64,000 nucleotides of DNA from Massilia putida (lineage in GTDB: Bacteria; Pseudomonadota; Gammaproteobacteria; Burkholderiales; Burkholderiaceae_D), in NCBI RefSeq assembly GCF_001941825.1, contig NZ_CP019038.1, positions 4,836,001 to 4,900,000 on the forward strand, given 5' to 3'. Made by a program: the position numbers and the translations under genes. The notes beneath the pieces are model-generated. The model saw only the letters and a list, made by a program, of their open reading frames with translations, was not told the origin of the DNA and ran no database searches. Positions 613-10,444 of this stretch are shown in pieces (position 1 is the stretch's first letter; every line of letters begins with the position of its first letter).

Positions 613-707
613 CACATTCATAATTGTTAAGCGCTAACGCAGAACATGTTAAACTTTTAGGCTGTGCCCGATGTGCGGGCGCTTTCACTCATGCACAAGG
701 AGTCAGC

Positions 708-3116
708 GTGCTGATCAGATCCGATGACCTCCTGTCAGGTAAATACGGCAGGAGCGGGCATTTCGTAAGGTTTTACGACGACGGCGACGTCATGCTGGAC
801 GAAGTCGCGAGCTTTCTCGGCCAAGCCGTGCGGTCGGACGGTAAAGGTATCGTGATCGCCACGCAGGACCACGTCGACGTGCTGCGCCGGCGCCTCGGCC
901 GGGCGGCCGTGCGGGTCGCCTGGATGGATGCCGAGGCCGTGCTGGCGCAGTTCATGGTCGAGGGCTGGCCGGATCCGGCACGCTTCGAGGCCGCGGTCGG
1001 CACCGCGGTGGCCGCCGCCTGCGCCGGCGGCGCCACCCTGCACGCCTTCGGCGAAATGGTGGCGCTGTTGTGTGCGCGCGGCTGCCACGACGCCGCGCTC
1101 GAACTCGAGGCGCTGTGGAACGGACTGGCGGCGCGGTACGACTTCTCGCTGTTCTGTGCCTATCCCTGGGACGCGTTCCCGACGCCGGACCTCGCGCACG
1201 CCTTCCGCCACGTGTGCGCCCAACATGATCACGCCTGCGCCGACCAGGCACTGGACCTGCCGGCCGAAGGCGACGCCGACATCGGCCGCATCCGGCTCGA
1301 GCAGGAAGTGCGGGCGCTGCGCGCCGACGTGGCGCGGCACAAGGAGAACGAGCAGACACTGCGTCTCAGTGAACGGGAACTCGCGGACTTCGTCGAGAAC
1401 GCGGTCGAGGGCCTGCACCGCGTCGGCGCCGACGGCACCATCCTGTGGGCGAACCGCGCGGAACTGCAGATGCTCGGCTACACCTGGGAAGAATACGTCG
1501 GCCACAACATCGCCGAGTTCCACGCCGACACGCCGGTCATCGGCGACATCATCTCGCGGCTGGTGCGCGGCGAAACGCTGTACGACTATCCTGCGCGGCT
1601 GCGCTGCAAGGACGGTTCGATCCGCCACGTGCTGATCCACTCGAACGGCAGCTTCGAAGATGGCCAGCTGCGCTTCACCCGTTGCTTCACGCGCGACGCC
1701 ACCGAGCGGCGCGAGCGCGACATCGCGCTCCGGCAGCGCGACCGCATGCTGCTCGACGCCCCGGTGGCGGCGGCCCTGCTGACGGGGCCGGACTTCGTCT
1801 TCCGCCTGGCCAACCGCCGCTACTGCGAGCTGGTCGGCCGCGGCGGCATCGAAGGACAGCCCTTGCTGCAAGCCTTTCCGGAATTGCGCGGCAGCGAGAT
1901 CCACCATCTGCTGGAACAAGTCCACGCCACCGGCCAGGCGGCACGCGTGGAAGAGTTGCACGTGCACGAACGCTTCCTCAAGTTCAGCGTCGAGCCGCTG
2001 GCGGTGGAAGAGGGCGAGGAGCGCGGCATGATCGTCGTTGCCGTCGACGTCACCGAACAGGTACGCATCCGCCAGGAGATCGAGCATGCCCACGCCGAGC
2101 GCGAAGAACTGCTGGCCGAACTGACGACCGCCAACCGCGCCAAGGACGAATTCCTGGCCATGCTCGGCCACGAACTGCGCAACCCGCTGTCGCCGATCGT
2201 CAGCGCGCTGGAGCTGATCCGCATGCGCGGCGAGACCGGCTCGCTGCGCGAGCGCGAGGTCATCGAGCGCCAGGTGCAGCACCTGGTGCGGCTGGTGGAC
2301 GACCTGCTGGACGTGTCGCGCGTCACCCGCGGCAAGGTGGAGCTCAAGTGCGAGCGCGTCGAGATCGCCCAGCCCCTGGGCAAGGCCATCGAGATGGCCC
2401 GGCCGCTGCTGGAACAGCACCGTCACCGGCTCGACGTCGACATCGAACCGGCACTCGTCTGGGAAGGCGATCCGATGCGCCTGGCCCAGGTGGTGGCCAA
2501 CCTGTTGACCAACGCGGCGCGCTACACGCCGGCCGGCGGCCATGTCATGGTGCGCGCGCGCGGCGCGGACGGCGAACAGGTGCGCATCGACGTGACGGAC
2601 ACCGGCATCGGCATGACGCCCGAACTGCGCGCCCAGGTGTTCGACCTGTTCTTCCAGGGGAAGCGCAACATCGACCGCGCCGAGGGCGGCCTGGGCATCG
2701 GGCTGGCCCTCGTCAAGAACATCGTCGAACTGCACGGTGGCCGCGTGGAAGCGCACAGCGACGGGCCGGGCAAGGGCAGCGCGTTCGTCGTGCTGCTGCC
2801 CCGGCGCACGCCGGCCGCCGGCGCGGTGGAGGACGTGCCGCGCGTGCCGTCCGCCCCGGCGGCGGCACGGTGCCGCGTGATGCTGGTGGACGACAACGTC
2901 GACGGCGCCGACACGCTGGCGCGCCTGCTCGCCGCGCACGGCCACGAGGTACGCGTCTTCCACGAACCGGTGGCCGCGCTGGCCGCCGTGCCGGGCTTCC
3001 TGCCCGACCTGGCCGTGCTCGACATCGGCCTGCCCGTCCTCGACGGCTATGAAGTGGCGCGCCGCCTGCGCGTGCTGCTGGATGGCCATCCGTGCCGTCT
3101 CGTCTCGTCGCGTTGA
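708..3116 (+). CDS. MEDS-PAS-PAS hybrid histidine kinase, receiver domain truncated by frameshift
   Basis: Cytoplasmic sensor kinase of 802 residues with no transmembrane segment. The GTG start at 708 follows AAGGAG (697-702) and matches the start of the paralogue at 3357. In order it has a MEDS (DcmR-type sensory) domain (~1-190; [20 protein letters not shown]), a short coiled coil, two PAS domains (~215-340 and ~345-460), HisKA with the phospho-His in [12 protein letters not shown] (His488), a HATPase domain (~590-705), and the first half of a receiver domain with Asp772 in VLDIGLP. The frame then closes at TGA 3114. Past a 5-bp tandem duplication, another frame continues with the missing receiver end. 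As it stands, the conserved Thr and Lys of the receiver are lost, so phosphotransfer to Asp772 is doubtful while the kinase part is complete. Confidence 0.85.
3097..3106 (+). repeat. 5-bp tandem duplication (GTCTC x2) causing the receiver frameshift
   Basis: GTCTC occurs twice head to tail (3097-3101 and 3102-3106). Removing one copy restores an open frame that reads through ALTGYG and HLVKPVNPD, the usual Thr and Lys motifs of a receiver domain. This is either a genuine slippage mutation or a sequencing or assembly error. Confidence 0.75.
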
Positions 3117-3356: not shown

Positions 3357-5279
3357 GTGCTGATCAAGACCGACGACCTGTTGTCCGGCAAACACGGCAA
3401 GACCGGGCATTTCGTCCGTTTCTACGATGACAGCGACACGCTGCTCGACGAGGTCGCATCCTTCCTCGAGCGGGCATTGCGGGCGCGGGGCCGGGGCGTC
3501 GTGATCGCCACTGGCGCGCACGTCGACGCGCTGCGGCGGCGCCTGGACGAGCTGGCGCGCCCCGAAGGGCGGGCGCCGCCGTCGTCGTGGGACGTCACGT
3601 GGCTCGACGCTGAAACGACGCTGGCGAGCTTCATGGTCGACGGCTGGCCCGACCGGACGCGCTTCGCGGCCGAGGTCGGCCGTGTTGTGGCCGCAGCCGG
3701 CGCCGGCGGCGCGACCGTGCATGCGTTCGGCGAGATGGTGGCGCTGCTGTGCGCGCGCGGCCGCTACGATGCGGCCCTGCATCTGGAGCGGCTGTGGAAC
3801 GACCTCGGGCGCAAGCACGATTTTTCGCTGTTCTGTGCCTATCCCTGGTCCCTGTTTCCGTCGGCCGACGTGGCGCACGTGTTCCGGCAGGTGTGCGGCG
3901 AACACGACCATGCCTGCGCGGACGCCGCCGCTTCTCTGCCGCCCGGACAGCCCGTCGACATCAACCTGGTCCGGCTGGAACAGAAGGTCCATGCGCTGCA
4001 GGCGGAGGCGGCGCGGCGGCGCCAGGCGGAAAAGGATTTGCTGCGGCGCGAGCGCGAGTTGGCCGATATCGCCGAGAATGCGGCGGAAGGCCTGCACCAG
4101 GTCGGCGCCGACGGCACCATCCTGTGGGCCAACAAGGCCGAGCTGCAGATGCTCGGCTACCGCTGGGAAGAATACGTCGGGCACCACGTCGCCCGCTTCC
4201 ACGCCGATGCGGACGTCATCGACGCGATGATGGCCAAGGTGGCGGCTGGGGAGACGGTGGTCGACCAGCCGGCGCGCCTGCGCTGCAAGGACGGCACGAT
4301 CCGGCACGTGATCATCCGCTCGAACGCCTGTTTCGAGGACGGCCGCCTGCGCTATACCCGCTGCTTCACGCGCGACACGACCGAGCATGTGCGCAACCTG
4401 GACGAGATCGCGCGCACCCACGCGCGCCACGCGGCGCTGGCCGCCGCGCTGGAGGACGCCCGCCGTGCCGAGGACGCGTTCCTCGCGATGCTCGGCCGCG
4501 CGCTGCGTGCCCCGCGCACCGAACGGCGGCTGCAGCGGCTTGCGCGGCTGGTGGAGAACCGGCTTCGCGGGCGCGCGCGGGGCGGATTACAATACCGGTT
4601 TTCACAGTTCGAGGGTCGTGTCGTGGACAATCTGCGCCAACAGTTCATTGCGTTTTCAGTCGAAGCCGAAGTCTTGAAGTTCGGCCAATTCATCACCAAG
4701 GCGGGCCGCCAGTCGCCGTACTTCTTCAACGCGGGCCTGTTCCACGACGGTGCCACGCTCGGCAAGCTGGCCGATTTCTACGCCCAGACGCTGCTCGATT
4801 CCGGCCTCGAATTCGACATGCTGTTCGGCCCCGCCTACAAGGGCATCACCCTGGCATCGAGCACCGCGGTGGCGCTGGCGGCGAAAGGCCGCAATACGTC
4901 GTTCGCCTACAACCGCAAGGAAGCCAAGGACCACGGCGAAGGCGGCACCATCGTCGGCGCCAAGCTGGCCGGCCGCGTCGTCATCATCGACGACGTGATC
5001 TCGGCGGGAACGTCCGTGCGCGAATCCGTCGCGATGATCCGTGCCGCCGGCGCCGAACCGGCCGCCGTGCTGATCGCGCTCGACCGCATGGAGCGCGGCG
5101 GCAAGGACGGCGTGCTGTCGCCGCTGTCGGCCGTGCAGGAAGTCAGCCAGAACTACGGCATCCCCGTCATCTCGATCGCCAGCCTGGCCGACCTGTTCGG
5201 CTACCTGGAAACCGATCCGTCGCTGGCGCAGCACAAGGACGCCGTCGCGGCGTACCGTCACCAATACGGCGTGGCCTGA
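3357..5279 (+). CDS. MEDS-PAS sensor with lost kinase core, in frame with pyrE
   Basis: One uninterrupted frame of 640 codons joins a sensor to orotate phosphoribosyltransferase. The GTG start follows AAGGA (3347-3351) and parallels the gene at 708. Residues ~1-200 are a MEDS domain and ~225-345 a PAS domain, both closely similar to the first paralogue. The next segment is a decayed HisKA: the H-box reads FLAMLGRALRAP, with the phospho-His replaced by Arg, and about 25 residues of the helix pair are missing. No ATPase domain remains. The frame then enters pyrE at codon 423 without a stop. Either this is a truncated sensor whose stop has been lost next to an independently started pyrE, or a MEDS-PAS-OPRT fusion protein is made. 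Independent pyrE translation from 4623 seems more likely. Confidence 0.7.
   Translation: MLIKTDDLLSGKHGKTGHFVRFYDDSDTLLDEVASFLERALRARGRGVVIATGAHVDALRRRLDELARPEGRAPPSSWDVTWLDAETTLASFMVDGWPDRTRFAAEVGRVVAAAGAGGATVHAFGEMVALLCARGRYDAALHLERLWNDLGRKHDFSLFCAYPWSLFPSADVAHVFRQVCGEHDHACADAAASLPPGQPVDINLVRLEQKVHALQAEAARRRQAEKDLLRRERELADIAENAAEGLHQVGADGTILWANKAELQMLGYRWEEYVGHHVARFHADADVIDAMMAKVAAGETVVDQPARLRCKDGTIRHVIIRSNACFEDGRLRYTRCFTRDTTEHVRNLDEIARTHARHAALAAALEDARRAEDAFLAMLGRALRAPRTERRLQRLARLVENRLRGRARGGLQYRFSQFEGRVVDNLRQQFIAFSVEAEVLKFGQFITKAGRQSPYFFNAGLFHDGATLGKLADFYAQTLLDSGLEFDMLFGPAYKGITLASSTAVALAAKGRNTSFAYNRKEAKDHGEGGTIVGAKLAGRVVIIDDVISAGTSVRESVAMIRAAGAEPAAVLIALDRMERGGKDGVLSPLSAVQEVSQNYGIPVISIASLADLFGYLETDPSLAQHKDAVAAYRHQYGVA
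4588..4615 (+). promoter_or_regulatory. Likely native pyrE -10 and ribosome binding site
   Basis: TACAAT at 4588-4593 is one base from the -10 consensus. GAGGG at 4611-4615 lies 7 nt before the GTG at 4623. Both are inside the fused reading frame, and sequence composition drops from the very GC-rich sensor tail just here. This supports separate expression of pyrE. No convincing -35 hexamer is visible. Confidence 0.4.
4623..5279 (+). CDS. pyrE: Orotate phosphoribosyltransferase
   Basis: Converts orotate and PRPP to orotidine 5'-monophosphate in de novo pyrimidine synthesis. The 218 residues from the GTG at 4623 match the family length (~213-220). The PRPP-binding loop VVIIDDVISAGTSVRES, the catalytic-loop segment FAYNRKEAKDHGEGG and the N-terminal LKFGQFITKAGRQSPYF are all intact. 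GAGGG precedes the start. The gene is in frame with the upstream sensor remnant, so an N-terminally extended form is possible, but the enzyme domain itself is complete and conventional. A small membrane-protein gene follows after 45 bp. Confidence 0.95.
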   Translation: MDNLRQQFIAFSVEAEVLKFGQFITKAGRQSPYFFNAGLFHDGATLGKLADFYAQTLLDSGLEFDMLFGPAYKGITLASSTAVALAAKGRNTSFAYNRKEAKDHGEGGTIVGAKLAGRVVIIDDVISAGTSVRESVAMIRAAGAEPAAVLIALDRMERGGKDGVLSPLSAVQEVSQNYGIPVISIASLADLFGYLETDPSLAQHKDAVAAYRHQYGVA

Positions 5280-5324: not shown

Positions 5325-5564
5325 ATGAACAACATCGCCCGCGGCATCCTGACCGTCATCCTGTGCGTGGTGCTCGTGGGCTTTGGCGTCTGCGGCGCCA
5401 TGGGCGCGTTCGGCGGCCTGGCCGGCCTGGCCCGCGGTTCCGGCGACGGCAGGAGCTTCGCGCCCATGCTGATCGGCCTGGGCCTCGTCGGGCTCGGCAT
5501 CGCCTGGGTCTGCGGCATGGCGGTCGTACGCCTGTGGCGCAAGCGCCCGCCTGCCGGCGAATGA
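5325..5564 (+). CDS. Small two-TM membrane protein
   Basis: 79 residues with two hydrophobic segments (~8-33 and ~48-68). The first is Gly/Ala-rich with two Cys, and a basic C-terminus (WRKRP) should face the cytoplasm. GGAG lies 5 nt before the ATG. I do not recognise a family. It is 7 bp upstream of the Lgt-like gene, and the order small membrane protein - Lgt-like - radical SAM suggests one transcript. Its role is unknown; a partner or scaffold for the next two proteins is only a guess. Confidence 0.7.
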   Translation: MNNIARGILTVILCVVLVGFGVCGAMGAFGGLAGLARGSGDGRSFAPMLIGLGLVGLGIAWVCGMAVVRLWRKRPPAGE

Positions 5565-5571
5565 ATCGCAA

Positions 5572-6321
5572 ATGAGCGGCCCCGTGCTTCCCGCCGCGGC
5601 GGCGCAACCGGTTCACCTCGTGTTCGAATGGCTGGCGCTGGCCGGTGGCGTGCAGCTGTACCGCTGGCAGCGCCGGCGCGCGCATCAGCCCGCGCTGCTG
5701 CAGCCGGGCTCCTTCGCCATCGTCGTCGGCTGCATCCTCGGCGCCGCCATCGGCAACAAGCTCGTGTTCTGGATCGAGATGCCGCACCTGTGGCGCGGCG
5801 CCATGCCGGACTGGCGCCTGATCGCGTCGGGCCAGTCGATCGTCGGCGGACTGCTGGGCGGCCTGCTCGGCGTGGAGGTCGCCAAGAAGCTCACGGGCAT
5901 CCGCCGCTCGACGGGCGACCAGTTCATCCTGCCCCTGGTCGCCGGCACGGTCGTCGGCCGCATCGGTTGCTTCCTGGCCGGCCTGCACGACGGCACCTAT
6001 GGCGTGCCCACGCGCCTGCCGTGGGGCGTCGACTTCGGCGACGGCGTCCCGCGCCATCCGACCCAGGTCTACGACATGCTATTCGTGCTGGCCGTGGGCG
6101 CCTTGCTGTGGCGTTGGCATGCACCGCTCGCGCGCCGTCCGGGCCTCGCGTTCAAGCTGTACCTCGCGTCCTATCTCGCCTGGCGCCTGCTCGTGGACGG
6201 CATCAAGCCGGTGCCGTATGCCTATGCGTTCGGGCTGTCCGGCATCCAGTGGGTGTGCATGGTGGCGCTGGCGTGCTATCTGCCGCTCGTCATCGCACAA
6301 CTTCGCAGGGAGACCGCATGA
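5572..6321 (+). CDS. Divergent prolipoprotein diacylglyceryl transferase (Lgt) family protein
   Basis: Inner-membrane protein of 249 residues with several TM helices. It is clearly related to Lgt by SGQSIVGGLLGG (~87-97), VGRIGCFLAG (~129-137) and PRHPTQVYDM (~160-169). In E. coli Lgt, as I recall it, the first motif reads MSFHGGLIG and the second GRLGNFING. Here the His (H103) is Val91 and the Asn (N146) is Cys133, while the Arg (R143) is kept as Arg130. Both replaced positions matter for lipoprotein lipidation, so this is unlikely to be the cell's housekeeping Lgt. The stop overlaps the start of the radical SAM gene (ATGA), implying translational coupling. A lipid or diacylglyceryl substrate is plausible; the acceptor is unknown. 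Confidence 0.85.
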   Translation: MSGPVLPAAAAQPVHLVFEWLALAGGVQLYRWQRRRAHQPALLQPGSFAIVVGCILGAAIGNKLVFWIEMPHLWRGAMPDWRLIASGQSIVGGLLGGLLGVEVAKKLTGIRRSTGDQFILPLVAGTVVGRIGCFLAGLHDGTYGVPTRLPWGVDFGDGVPRHPTQVYDMLFVLAVGALLWRWHAPLARRPGLAFKLYLASYLAWRLLVDGIKPVPYAYAFGLSGIQWVCMVALACYLPLVIAQLRRETA

Positions 6322-7796
6322 CCCGCAAATCCCGCCCCTACCTGTTCTACGACACGACGACGTCCGTGTGCTCGCGCTGCCTGCATCCGGTCGAGGCGAA
6401 GATCGTGTTCAAGGACGACAAGGTCTACATGGACAAGTGGTGCGGCGCGCACGGCTTTGAACGCGTGCTCGTCAGCGACGACGTCGCGTACTACCGCCTG
6501 TGCCGCGAAGTCTTCGTCAAGCATCCGGAGATGCCGCGGCAGTTCAACACGACGATGGCATACGGCTGCCCGTACGACTGCGGCCTGTGCCCGGACCACA
6601 TGCAGCACTCGTGCCTGTCGGTCGTCGAGATCACGGACAACTGCAACCTGAACTGCCCCGTGTGCTATGCGGAGAGTGGCACGCACCGCGAACGCCACCG
6701 CCCGCTGGAGGACGTGATCCGCATGCTCGACGCCATCGTCGCCAACGAAGGCGAGGCCGACGTGATGCAGCTGTCCGGCGGCGAGCCGACCCTGCATCCG
6801 CAGTTCTGGGACATCCTCGACGCCGCGAAGGCGCGGCCCATCAGGCACGTGATGATCAACACGAACGGCATCGTGCTCGCGCAGGACAAGGATGTCGTAC
6901 GACGCCTGGCCGGCTACGCGCCCGGCGTCGAAGTCTACCTGCAGTTCGATTCGCTGCGTGCCGAGGTCCATCGCGCGTTGCGCGGCGCGGACCTCACGCG
7001 CATCCGCCGCCAGGCGCTCGACAACCTGAACGAGGCCGGCCTGTCGACGACGCTCGTCGTCACGCTCAAGAAAGGCTTGAACGACGGCGAGATCGGCGCC
7101 ATCATCGACTTCGCGCTGCAACAGCCCTGCGTGCGCGGCGTGACCGTGCAGCCGATCCAGGACGCCGGCCGCGTGGAAGACTACGACCCGCGCCTGCACC
7201 GCCTGACGGTATCCGAGATCCGCCGCCGCATCGCCGAACAAAGCCGCCTGTTCACGCTGGAAGACGTGGTGCCGGTGCCCTGCAACCCGGACACGCTGGC
7301 GATGGCGTACGCGATCAAGACGGAACAGGGCGCCGTGCCGCTGACGCGCTGGCTCGATCCGCAGACGCTCGTCGAAGGCGGCGGCAACACGATCGTGTTC
7401 GAACGCGACCCGAGCCTGCACGGCCTCGTGAAGGACCGGATCTTCGAACTGTTCGCGACGAACCACTCGCCGGAATCGCAGGCCAACTGCCTGTCGGAGC
7501 TGATGTGCTGCCTGCCGCTGGTCAGCGCGCCGTCCGCGCTCCGCTACGACAACGTGTTCCGCGTGCTGATCGTGCAGTTCATGGATGCGTATGCGCTCGA
7601 CGTGCGGGCGCTGAAGAAGTCGTGCATCCATTTCGCGCTGCCGGACGGCCGCCTGGTCCCGTTCGAAAGCTACAACCTGCTGTACCGCGACGGACGCCGG
7701 CTGGAACACATCCGCGCCGGCATCGCGAACGATTTCGCGCGCCGGCGCGAGCGGACTACGATACCGCTGGTGCCGGCGCCGCCATCTGCTGCTTGA
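6318..7796 (+). CDS. Radical SAM protein resembling tetraether lipid synthase (Tes/MJ0619 family)
   Basis: 492 residues; the ATG overlaps the Lgt-like stop. The N-terminus carries a rubredoxin- or zinc-type set Cys18-x2-Cys21 and Cys42-x2-His45 (CGAHG). A second cluster motif, YGCPYDCGLCPDHMQHSC (Cys84, 88, 91), follows, then the radical SAM motif CNLNCPVCYA (Cys109, 113, 116) and the GGEPTLHP loop. Further Cys lie near 320 and in the C-terminal third (NCLSELMCC, KSCIHF). This order of cysteine sets is what I know from archaeal MJ0619/Tes, which joins lipid chains by carbon-carbon bonds, and from its bacterial relatives. Coupling to an Lgt-family membrane protein supports a lipid role. The exact reaction is inference. 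The 3' end overlaps the convergent SPFH gene by 41 bp. Confidence 0.8.
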   Translation: MTRKSRPYLFYDTTTSVCSRCLHPVEAKIVFKDDKVYMDKWCGAHGFERVLVSDDVAYYRLCREVFVKHPEMPRQFNTTMAYGCPYDCGLCPDHMQHSCLSVVEITDNCNLNCPVCYAESGTHRERHRPLEDVIRMLDAIVANEGEADVMQLSGGEPTLHPQFWDILDAAKARPIRHVMINTNGIVLAQDKDVVRRLAGYAPGVEVYLQFDSLRAEVHRALRGADLTRIRRQALDNLNEAGLSTTLVVTLKKGLNDGEIGAIIDFALQQPCVRGVTVQPIQDAGRVEDYDPRLHRLTVSEIRRRIAEQSRLFTLEDVVPVPCNPDTLAMAYAIKTEQGAVPLTRWLDPQTLVEGGGNTIVFERDPSLHGLVKDRIFELFATNHSPESQANCLSELMCCLPLVSAPSALRYDNVFRVLIVQFMDAYALDVRALKKSCIHFALPDGRLVPFESYNLLYRDGRRLEHIRAGIANDFARRRERTTIPLVPAPPSAA

Positions 7797-9693
7797 CGGC
7801 CATCGCCAGGAACGCGTCCAGCGCGGTGCCGCGGCCGTCGCTTGATCCCACCTGGATCGACGGCACGAGCGCCACGTGGCCGCGCTCGATCGCCTCGGCG
7901 AAGCGCAGCAGGACGGTCTGCTGGAACTGCAGTTCCGGGCCGCCGTAGGCCGCCACGTTCAATTCCGTCGCCTTGGCCTGCGCCTGGCCGACCGCTTCCA
8001 GCTGGAAGGCTTCCGCCTCGGCCAGGCGGCGCTTGGCGTCGGCCGCGCCGGCCGCGTTCTGGCGCGCTTCCTCGGCCGCCTTGATCGCCTTCTGCACGGC
8101 GGCGCTGCCCTGGTTTTCGGCGATGCGCACGGCGAGTTCCGATTCCGTGATCGACGTCTGCTGCTTGGCGCGCGCCTCCGCCTCGCGCAGGATGCGTTCC
8201 TGCTGCGCGGCCGCTTCCTTGGTGCGGTAGGTCTCCAGCTGCTCGCGCGAGACCTGGCGTTCGCGCAGCTGGCGCAGGATCGTCTCGATCTGCGTGTCGC
8301 CTTCCTTCGCGCGCGGCGTGCCGATCAGGACTTCGTTCAGCGTGAGGTTATAGCCTTCGAAATTGCGGCGCATTTCCGCCATCGCCCGTTCCTGGATATC
8401 CGAGCGTTCCTGCAGCAGTTCGATGAGTGTCTTGCGCTGGCCGACGTTCTTGAAATACGCGGCCACCATCGGATCGAGCGTCTGCTCGACCAGCCTGCGG
8501 ATGTCGCCGAAGCGCTGGATCACGAGCGGCGCCATCTTGTAGTCGATGTTGACCACGACCGACAGCGGCAGGTCCGGCTCGAACGCGTCCTTCGTGATCA
8601 GCGACACTTCCGACAGATGCTTGTCCAGCTCATGCGAGCCGATCGCGCCCGCCTGCCATTTCAGGATGAAGTTCGTGGTCGGCACCTCGATCACGCGTTT
8701 CGCGTACGGATTCAGCGCATATTTCCCCGGCAGCAGGGGCGTCGCCTGCACGCCCTTTTCGTCGGTGCCGACCAGTTCCCCGTGGCGGTACGCGTCGCCC
8801 GTGATGTCCGTGCCGGCCTTGCCCGTGTACGACACGACCACGCCGACGAAGCCCACCGGCACCTCGGTCTTCGGCACGATTTCCCACGACGCGAAGCGCG
8901 CGTTCAGGTAGTACGTGCCTTCGACGAGCACCTGCAGCTGACGGCCCTTGTAGCCGCCGGCGTCGATGAACGTTTCCGGATTCTGGTAATCGTGGTGGTA
9001 GCGCGCCGCGTCGGCCGGGTCGGCGCCGACGATGGGCGCGACGATCGTCCCTTCCGGCAGCGACAGGCCTTCGTGCGTCGTGACGACGGCCAGCTTGTCG
9101 TCGCGGATCACGAGCGGACGGAAACCGCCGCGCGCGACGAGGTCGTCGTGGACGGCCGCGAGGATGCCGCCGATGCCGCCCTTCGCATCGACGTCGGCGT
9201 CGCCCGGCAGCGGCAGGGCGTACACGCGGTCTTCGGCCAGCACGACGAATTGCGCAAGGTTGATGGCGTAGGTGCCCTCGCGCAGGATCTTGCGCTGCAG
9301 GCCTTTCTGGCCGCCTTGCGCGAGGAACGCGGCGACGTCGGTGAAATCGTTGGCGACCTTGTTGCAACCGAGGTTCTGGCTCGGTGCCATCGGCAGGCCG
9401 TCGCGCGCGAACACGTAGGCGAGGGTGCCCTGCTGGATGGTCACGAGGTTCTCGCGGTGCACGCGGTACTGGAACGGCGGGAAGAAGTGAAAGCCGCCGC
9501 GCAGCACGGCCGGCTGGAACCCGGCCTCGCCCTGCAGCGCGATGAAGCCGGCGTGCACCGACCCGCGCCCCGACCATTTCTTTTCCACGATCCCGATCTT
9601 GTCGTTGGGGATGTAGACCACGCAGCTGCGCACGAAGACCAGGATGGCGGCGGCAAGCAGGCCTGCGGCCGCGACGGCGATAATCTCGAACAT
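7756..9693 (-). CDS. SPFH/flotillin-like membrane protein
   Basis: 645 residues. The start at 9693 gives an N-terminal TM anchor (FEIIAVAAAGLLAAAILVFV), then a long SPFH/Band 7 region and a coiled-coil, Ala/Glu/Gln-rich segment (~440-580) of the flotillin type (KEAAAQQERILREAEARAKQ). A Pro/Ala-rich tail ends the protein. Flotillin-like proteins oligomerise on the membrane and organise microdomains. The gene is larger than simple flotillins because of an insert in the N-terminal half (LREGTYAINLAQF, VEGTYYLNARF), which repeats an 'EGTYxxN' theme. It converges on the radical SAM gene with a 41-bp 3' overlap, so the two could influence each other's expression. Confidence 0.85.
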   Translation of the reverse strand: MFEIIAVAAAGLLAAAILVFVRSCVVYIPNDKIGIVEKKWSGRGSVHAGFIALQGEAGFQPAVLRGGFHFFPPFQYRVHRENLVTIQQGTLAYVFARDGLPMAPSQNLGCNKVANDFTDVAAFLAQGGQKGLQRKILREGTYAINLAQFVVLAEDRVYALPLPGDADVDAKGGIGGILAAVHDDLVARGGFRPLVIRDDKLAVVTTHEGLSLPEGTIVAPIVGADPADAARYHHDYQNPETFIDAGGYKGRQLQVLVEGTYYLNARFASWEIVPKTEVPVGFVGVVVSYTGKAGTDITGDAYRHGELVGTDEKGVQATPLLPGKYALNPYAKRVIEVPTTNFILKWQAGAIGSHELDKHLSEVSLITKDAFEPDLPLSVVVNIDYKMAPLVIQRFGDIRRLVEQTLDPMVAAYFKNVGQRKTLIELLQERSDIQERAMAEMRRNFEGYNLTLNEVLIGTPRAKEGDTQIETILRQLRERQVSREQLETYRTKEAAAQQERILREAEARAKQQTSITESELAVRIAENQGSAAVQKAIKAAEEARQNAAGAADAKRRLAEAEAFQLEAVGQAQAKATELNVAAYGGPELQFQQTVLLRFAEAIERGHVALVPSIQVGSSDGRGTALDAFLAMAVKQQMAAPAPAVS

Positions 9694-9742
9694 ACGGCGT
9701 CCTTTCGACGATGATGACGAGACCAGCGTAGCCGCGAAGCGC

Positions 9743-9790
9743 GTAAACGCGGTGTATAAAGATCGGGGCCGGTTGCAACGGCCCCGTAAA
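9743..9790. repeat. 48-bp hairpin repeat, copy A
   Basis: This copy and that at 11130-11177 agree at 41 of 48 positions without gaps. Copy A folds into a perfect 8-bp stem (CGGGGCCG / CGGCCCCG) around GTTGCAA, with a shared TGTATAAAG to its left. Three of the seven differences fall in one stem arm and two in the other. It lies between the GST stop and the SPFH start and could act as a weak terminator; T-runs are short. Confidence 0.65.
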
Positions 9791-9793
9791 AAC

Positions 9794-10444
9794 TCAAGCG
9801 GCGGCAACCTCCGCCGCGTACTGCGCCACCTGGGCCGCCAGCGCCTTGCGGTAGGCGGGGCGCGCCGTGCAGCGGTCGCGCCAGGCCGTCAGGCGCTCGA
9901 AGCGCTCGACATAGCCCATGCCGTCGAGCAGGCGCACGACGGTCGTCATGAGGATGTCGGCCGCGCTGAAATCGCCGGCCAGGTACTCCCGGCCTTCCAG
10001 CCAGTCGTCCACCTGGCCCAGGCGCTTGAGCGCGATCTGTTCCAGCACGGGGCGCTGCGCGGCGGCCCACGGTTCGTTCATCGAGAACGCGACGAGGTTG
10101 GCGAGGTTGCCGACATAGGGCTCGACCGAATTCAACGCGGCGAACATCCACATCGTGACGTGCGCACGGCCGTCCGGATCACGCGGCAGCAGGACGGGAT
10201 GACGCTCGCCCAGGTGCAGCAGGATCGCGCCGCTTTCGAACAGCGTCAGGTCGCCGTCCTGCAGTACGGGTACCTGGCTGAACGGCTGCTCGCGGCGGTA
10301 GGCGGCCGACTCTTTCTCCTCGAAGCCGATCAGGCGCAGGTCGTACGGTTGGCCGGCTTCCTCGAGGGCCCAGCGCACACGCAGGTCGCGCACGTGGCCG
10401 ACGGCAAACGAAGGAACGGAACGGAAGGTGGTCAGGGTAGGCAT
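9794..10444 (-). CDS. Glutathione S-transferase family protein
   Basis: 216 residues, cytoplasmic. An N-terminal thioredoxin-like domain (residues 1-80, with FSQVPVLQDG and LFESGAILLHL, the cis-Pro and Glu-Ser glutathione contacts) is followed by an all-helical C-terminal domain. The start at 10444 is preceded by AAGGAG, and an upstream in-frame ATG lacks such support. It is divergent from a TetR gene across a 16-bp palindrome, so it is probably repressed by TetR and induced by an electrophile or drug. The substrate is unknown. Confidence 0.9.
   Translation of the reverse strand: MPTLTTFRSVPSFAVGHVRDLRVRWALEEAGQPYDLRLIGFEEKESAAYRREQPFSQVPVLQDGDLTLFESGAILLHLGERHPVLLPRDPDGRAHVTMWMFAALNSVEPYVGNLANLVAFSMNEPWAAAQRPVLEQIALKRLGQVDDWLEGREYLAGDFSAADILMTTVVRLLDGMGYVERFERLTAWRDRCTARPAYRKALAAQVAQYAAEVAAA

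Follow-up and report, generated by a model that had tools for sequence, protein, structure and literature searches.

A conserved three-gene module in bacteria couples an Lgt paralogue to a Tes/TrsS-like radical SAM protein and a small cysteine-bearing membrane protein, and likely has a lipid function

Results

A three-gene locus in Massilia putida

We analysed a stretch of 64,000 nt from Massilia putida (NZ_CP019038.1, positions 4,836,001-4,900,000), called the window below. Three consecutive genes in it encode a small membrane protein, a membrane protein related to Lgt and a radical S-adenosylmethionine (SAM) protein similar to Tes and TrsS (Table 1). The first two genes are separated by a gap of 7 bp (5565-5571), and the second and the third share an ATGA overlap at 6318-6321. 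A sequence-only reading of this DNA had proposed this arrangement, as well as two transmembrane segments for the small protein, and both are borne out by the plus-strand coordinates of the open reading frames (ORFs) and by two hydrophobic stretches. A scan for promoters and terminators found none of either. The comparisons presented here establish a real, conserved three-gene module that is built from new branches of known families and is undescribed as far as our literature searches reach. A lipid function for it is likely.

Table 1. Features of the three-gene locus (window coordinates).
Feature	Position	Strand	Evidence
Small membrane protein, 79 aa	5325-5564	+	Two hydrophobic stretches
Codon of conserved C23 (putative lipid acceptor)	5391-5393	+	Small-protein alignment
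Lgt-like membrane protein, 249 aa	5572-6321	+	PF01790, E 1e-21
Tes/TrsS-like radical SAM protein, 492 aa	6318-7796	+	PF04055, E 3.3e-28; PF23545, E 2e-18

The two enzymes occur together

We searched 245 genomes of the window's family separately for the two enzymes. A radical SAM match at E ≤ 1e-30, the threshold applied in the family and class samples, was found in 24 of them. Twenty-two of these are of the close type with at least 57% identity (G693 gave a fragment only), and G523 and G623 contain only distant matches of 27-42% identity, one of them over a part. The Lgt-like protein is present in the same 22 genomes, and in all 22 the pair lies on one contig within 1 kb, a coupling that is far beyond chance. 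Neither gene was found in the other 17 genomes that we sampled from the window's genus, and the module is therefore patchy.

The pairing that the sequence-only reading had seen at one locus is conserved well beyond the genus. In the class sample (229 genomes), the radical SAM protein occurs in eight genomes, and the Lgt-like gene adjoins it in six of the seven non-window loci (L004-L010, with L007 as the exception). In the phylum sample, nine of 299 genomes match the TrsS model at E ≤ 1e-40, and all eight non-window loci (L091, L093-L099) contain an Lgt-like gene. Among the named genomes, 78 of the best 80 of 322 loci have the Lgt-like gene; the contigs of the two misses (L057 and L087, kept as misses in all counts) start 327 and 922 bases before the match. 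Two further searches covered 120 listed entries out of 7999 scored candidates and 120 out of 6300. Named isolates of Massilia, Collimonas and Undibacterium are among the relatives.

The loci of 94 relatives were then compared. Loci L091, L092, L100-L102 and L104-L106, which are repeat genomes or loci cut close to the match, lie outside these counts and outside the same-strand/opposite-strand pattern count given below, but L091, L101 and L104 are included in the list of ORFs that occupy the slot between the enzymes. The Lgt-like gene is upstream on the same strand in 88 loci, on the opposite strand in three (L051, L066, L076) and not found in three. In the 88 same-strand loci, the two genes overlap or are within 50 bp of each other in 52 cases, are 51-400 bp apart in 14 and further apart in 22. 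Four loci (L051, L055, L066, L076) carry the label Myxococcota in the tree. One of them, L055, is arranged in the usual way and includes a small protein. The other three, labelled Myxococcaceae/Archangiaceae, combine a closely related radical SAM protein with an inverted and much diverged Lgt-like gene; in L051, a fatty acid hydroxylase gene lies between the two.

The Lgt-like protein is a diverged paralogue

The window protein scores above the gathering threshold of PF01790 and has the Lgt fold, which was recovered from its model by VIA (Foldseek alone missed Lgt). Its scores are far below the cut-offs of the NCBIfam Lgt equivalog models (54.7 bits for NF000778 with a cut-off of 334, and 34.6 bits for TIGR00544 with a cut-off of 118.9). 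In the tree, the Lgt-like proteins form a clade separate from canonical Lgt. The same genome encodes a canonical Lgt elsewhere, which scores 246 bits as opposed to 77 bits for the window gene. Hence, the protein encoded in the window is a paralogue rather than the housekeeping Lgt.

A comparison of 88 Lgt-like proteins, the window's included, with E. coli Lgt, whose numbering serves as the reference, shows which parts of the active site have been retained. Residues R143, Y235 and R239 are invariant in all 88 (R130, Y201 and R205 in the window protein), so that both phosphatidylglycerol (PG) site residues, R143 and R239, are present throughout. In contrast, the essential H103 is a histidine in none of the 88: it is a valine in the window protein and V, L, I, A or E across the set. 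This position is a tyrosine or tryptophan in Lgt of Firmicutes and Actinobacteria. The essential N146 is a cysteine in all 88 (C133 in the window protein), and E151 is replaced as well. The column of the essential Y26 is a gap in all 88, where the N-terminal alignment is unsure, and that of the essential G154 is a glycine in 43. At the same time, E102, K105, T114 and C133 are newly invariant in all 88. The Lgt-like protein thus appears to have kept the PG side of the active site and to have a changed acceptor side, and a covalent role for C133, which stands in place of N146, is possible.

The small membrane protein is an integral part of the module

The small protein of the window consists of a basic residue (R6), a hydrophobic helix, the motif GFGVCG with C23, a second hydrophobic helix and a basic tail. 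A profile built from this protein and nine seeds was run iteratively against 4900 ORFs (2236 on the radical SAM strand and 2664 on the opposite one) of the 94 loci. It collected 93 family members at E < 1e-3 in 69 of the 94 loci, all on the radical SAM strand, a result that is partly built in for close relatives because the seeds had been picked on that strand. The small protein, which the sequence-only reading had mentioned in passing, is an integral third component of the module. In the genome-wide search with 30 small proteins, the window's included, 72 of the 245 family genomes gave a match at E ≤ 0.01. Strong matches (E < 1e-10) are confined to 19 genomes, namely 18 of the 22 pair-bearing ones and G619. 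A further copy lies away from the pair in G515, and the other matches are weak (E of 6e-5 or more) and mostly within long ORFs.

The family is diverse in sequence (15-68% identity to the window's protein), and its best conserved positions are the cysteine and a nearby glycine. The cysteine is present in 87 of the 93 members, and four of the other six have a nearby GLCG or GGC cysteine. It is found a median of 17 residues past the last basic residue (quartiles 17-20, n = 86), and by the positive-inside rule it would be at the outer face of the membrane, the side on which Lgt acts. The canonical lipobox [LVI][ASTVI][GAS]C occurs in none of the 87 proteins with the cysteine at this column.

We also searched ORFs of 45-320 aa for the pattern itself: a basic residue, at least 13 uncharged residues, G-x(0-3)-C and then G, T, A, S, V or I. 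In 95 Lgt-type loci, it matches 89 of 1430 same-strand ORFs and 1 of 1821 on the opposite strand; 64 of these loci have a same-strand match and 31 have none. As most opposite-strand ORFs need not be genes and this control is weak, we added a control of flanking DNA, which holds ordinary genes. Across 78 loci, the pattern matches 79 of 2739 ORFs near the pair (450 kb, 56 loci) compared with 8 of 4612 in the flanks (790 kb, 8 loci). No match was found in five methyltransferase-type loci, described below, or in three loci without an Lgt-like gene. Since the pattern was written after the family had been seen, and its matches include Sel1-type proteins and a DUF3558 protein, this result is a local enrichment and not an independent discovery.

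A larger protein with Sel1 similarity is found between the two enzymes in much of Oxalobacteraceae (PF08238 is above its cut-off in L081 and below it in L012). The motif G[GS][TM]GC ends the first hydrophobic stretch in 18 of 23 entries of the slot-ORF list, in which L101 and L104 represent one genome. Loci L083-L086, L089 and L090 (Oleiagrimonas, Dyella, Frateuria, Pseudoxanthomonas) are without a small protein. In four of them (L083, L084, L085, L090) a cluster of ORFs precedes the Lgt-like gene; the tested member of this cluster, from L085, is a TPR protein whose N-terminal helices are hydrophobic and which contains a cysteine.

The small proteins might instead be substrates of the radical SAM enzyme, in the manner of the precursors of ribosomally synthesized and post-translationally modified peptides, and be lipidated or anchored afterwards by the Lgt-like protein. 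Their diversity is in line with this, and so is the finding that 22 of the 69 loci (among them L027, L028, L030, L037, L060, L062, L072 and L073) encode two or three of them, diverged from one another. There is also a natural peptide, DybA, that is reported in a preprint (PMC12636315) to be first modified and then lipidated through the lipoprotein pathway. Nevertheless, we regard such a peptide pathway as quite improbable.

The radical SAM protein resembles both Tes and TrsS

The radical SAM protein contains a rubredoxin-type site (C18-x2-C21 and C42-x2-H45), an N-terminal auxiliary cluster site (G-C84-P-Y-D-C88-G-L-C91), the radical SAM cluster (C109-x3-C113-x2-C116) and the C-terminal cysteines C322, C397, C398 and C436. 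In an alignment of 38 sequences, the window protein included, every one of these residues is invariant or at least 90% conserved. These motifs had been read from the sequence earlier, and their presence and conservation are confirmed. C397 and C398 fall within a low-confidence stretch of the model (residues 355-404, predicted local distance difference test score, pLDDT, under 50), and for this reason we propose no cluster geometry for them.

The earlier assignment of this protein as Tes-like was upheld in part. The model has the full-length fold of GDGT-MAS, that is Tes, and the ligand sets of the rubredoxin site, the N-terminal cluster and the radical SAM cluster of Tes are kept. However, the protein scores 268.8 bits with the Tes model NF045702, which has a cut-off of 450 bits, its C-terminal cysteines are different, and Met439 and Tyr459 of MJ0619 correspond to V419 and F439 (equivalents are from a pairwise alignment, chain numbering minus 20). 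These two residues are said to be conserved in 1000 archaeal Tes homologues, but the MJ0619 variant M439A remains active. The best NCBIfam model is TrsS (NF045646), which aligns over residues 13-462 with 317.5 bits, below its cut-off of 490. The text of this model mentions no lipid function.

Two distant radical SAM proteins with an HMPTM zinc ribbon are encoded about 17 kb apart in one relative, G715 (L108:7201-9024 and L109:5657-7180). The region also holds FabA-like, ketosynthase, reductase and SPASM genes and is possibly a fatty-acid-type cluster.

One alternative is that the module deals with lipids only. The radical SAM protein would join or otherwise alter the acyl chains of PG-type phospholipids as Tes does, the Lgt-like protein would transfer or present the altered lipid, and the small protein would be a scaffold or anchor with a structural or redox cysteine. 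The full-length fold and the retained ligands argue for this, as do the FabA-like, ketosynthase and reductase genes near the distant paralogues, and two papers propose bacterial Tes homologues as makers of membrane-spanning lipids (PMC8941075, PMC11868695). The score below the Tes cut-off and the exchange of Met439 and Tyr459 weigh against it, although the M439A variant of MJ0619 is active. Furthermore, it leaves unexplained why, of all positions in the small proteins, the cysteine and a nearby glycine are conserved best. A module of this kind is possible, but we consider it doubtful.

At least two kinds of locus exist

A search of plasmid proteins gave nine records, of which eight loci (all but H9) were analysed. 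All eight proteins score best with TrsS among the NCBIfam models, and none reaches its cut-off. An Lgt-like ORF is upstream on the same strand in three of the eight. It overlaps the radical SAM ORF in Persicobacter psychrovividus (Bacteroidota, L114) and Nonomuraea gerenzanensis (Actinomycetota, L117), and two small membrane genes lie between them in Mycobacterium branderi (Actinomycetota, L118). In the Persicobacter locus, a 59-aa protein that ends in IGTGICGSLLS is encoded by an ORF overlapping the radical SAM gene at its end. GGLCTG and VGVCTG are found near the ends of the two small M. branderi proteins. The radical SAM proteins of M. branderi (37% identity to the query over 63%) and Nonomuraea (33% over 83%) are without the GCPYDCGLC motif.

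In the other five loci (Mycolicibacterium vanbaalenii and four haloarchaea), a methyltransferase gene directly follows the radical SAM gene, and the Lgt-like profile at E ≤ 0.01 found nothing in their 9-kb stretches. Redoxin, DUF547 or CcdA genes are near in four of the five (L115, L119, L120 and L121; the fifth is L116). These two arrangements define at least two kinds of locus. L007, whose radical SAM protein is 51% identical and has no CC motif, resembles the second kind: in L007/L113, a DUF547 gene and then a methyltransferase gene come after the radical SAM gene. A contig start near the gene explains the other Lgt-like misses (L057 and L087) but not this one, and its genome, which is 72% complete, yielded no Lgt other than a canonical one. 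Two of the methyltransferases were tested, and both come closest to the DVU_1556 family, with 152.8 (L007) and 136.3 bits and a cut-off of 155.

These loci bear on the possibility that the module serves thiol or redox chemistry and not lipids, with the Lgt-like protein reduced to a dead anchor in the membrane and the radical SAM protein acting, like TrsS, on a small molecule or thiol. TrsS is indeed the best model (317 bits), and the haloarchaeal and Mycolicibacterium relatives are next to a methyltransferase gene without a detected Lgt-like gene, four of the five near redoxin, DUF547 or CcdA genes; L007/L113 belongs with them. However, the name TrsS is not decisive, as the window protein and the eight plasmid-locus proteins are all below the cut-off, and the Lgt-type loci do not share the methyltransferase/redoxin context. 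Also, a dead anchor would hardly need R143, Y235 and R239, together with the new E102, K105, T114 and C133, to be invariant in 88 of 88 proteins. We find this explanation quite unlikely.

Surrounding genes

A Band 7/SPFH gene (7756-9807, minus strand) is convergent with the radical SAM gene, with 41 bp shared at the 3' end of the latter. Upstream, the ORF at 3357-5279 contains MEDS and PAS domains followed in frame by a phosphoribosyltransferase domain (PyrE-like by eye). It resembles the MEDS-PAS-histidine kinase at 624-3116 in shortened form and is either a fused gene or a pair of genes read together. LplT-PlsC fusion genes upstream of the module (31 of 80 loci by clustering, with domains from one representative) at first suggested lysophospholipid support. 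As the gene occurs in 225 of the 245 family genomes, we judge this link to be positional only. Aas-like ORFs are present in 10 loci (clustering, with domains of one representative).

Discussion

A proposed role in membrane protein lipidation

The recurrence of the enzyme pair in several phyla points to an undescribed lipid modification of a membrane protein or lipid. Our preferred explanation, which we put forward tentatively, is a three-part membrane lipid module in which the Lgt-like enzyme uses a non-canonical membrane cysteine as the acceptor. The Lgt-like protein would bind PG in its retained pocket and transfer a diacylglyceryl or related lipid part to a thiol outside the normal lipobox. 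The putative acceptor is the conserved cysteine at the outer helix end of the small protein and, in part of Oxalobacteraceae, also that of a Sel1-type anchored protein. As Leu, Ala, Val or Ile mostly precedes the cysteine, the small protein would stay uncleaved. From the cytoplasmic side, the Tes/TrsS-like enzyme would generate an acyl-chain radical for C-C joining or another C-H functionalisation. Its target could be the lipid used for transfer or the lipidated product. The suggestion of the sequence-only reading that an unusual acceptor may be lipidated agrees with the residue changes in the Lgt-like protein and with the cysteine conserved in the small one, with the chemistry itself conjectural.

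In its most far-reaching form, the proposal is a non-canonical system dedicated to protein lipidation and present in several bacterial phyla. In it, a second Lgt would put a PG-derived lipid on an uncleaved cysteine at the outer end of a transmembrane helix, with the signature of a basic residue, about 17-20 residues and G-x-C-G/T, and a Tes-like radical SAM enzyme would join or alter the chains of this lipid. The product would be a protein-bound lipid of a so far unseen kind, which might span the membrane. This fuller version is unlikely. Lgt is known for a single task, the step that starts lipoprotein biogenesis. A paralogue that keeps the PG site, has a changed acceptor site and is tied to a Tes-fold enzyme and cysteine proteins would show a second lipidation route.

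Comparison with known systems

We found no description of the enzyme pair or trio in searches of open-access papers. A methyltransferase gene alongside is a defining trait of TrsS. TrsS is the closest family model of the window protein, yet the protein is below its cut-off and its gene neighbours are Lgt-like and small membrane genes; no methyltransferase gene is present among the searched window neighbours. Mss, a bacterial synthase of membrane-spanning lipids, is described as sharing its catalytic architecture with Tes (PMC13274423).

Bacterial Tes homologues are known from genome surveys, and their activity is given there as unconfirmed (PMC8941075; PMC11868695). Three adjacent genes provide a concrete genetic handle on what these homologues do. 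Compared with the GDGT-MAS/Tes enzyme itself (MJ0619; PDB 7TOL, 7TOM), the window protein is bacterial, reaches 269 of 450 bits, has Val419 and Phe439 in place of Met439 and Tyr459 and has C322, C397, C398 and C436 as its conserved C-terminal cysteines; its gene is paired with an Lgt-like gene. Compared with Lgt (PDB 5AZB), the Lgt-like protein has H103, N146 and E151 replaced, Y26 not found and E102, K105, T114 and C133 newly invariant, and it represents a separate clade, below the NCBIfam Lgt cut-offs, in a genome that has a canonical Lgt besides.
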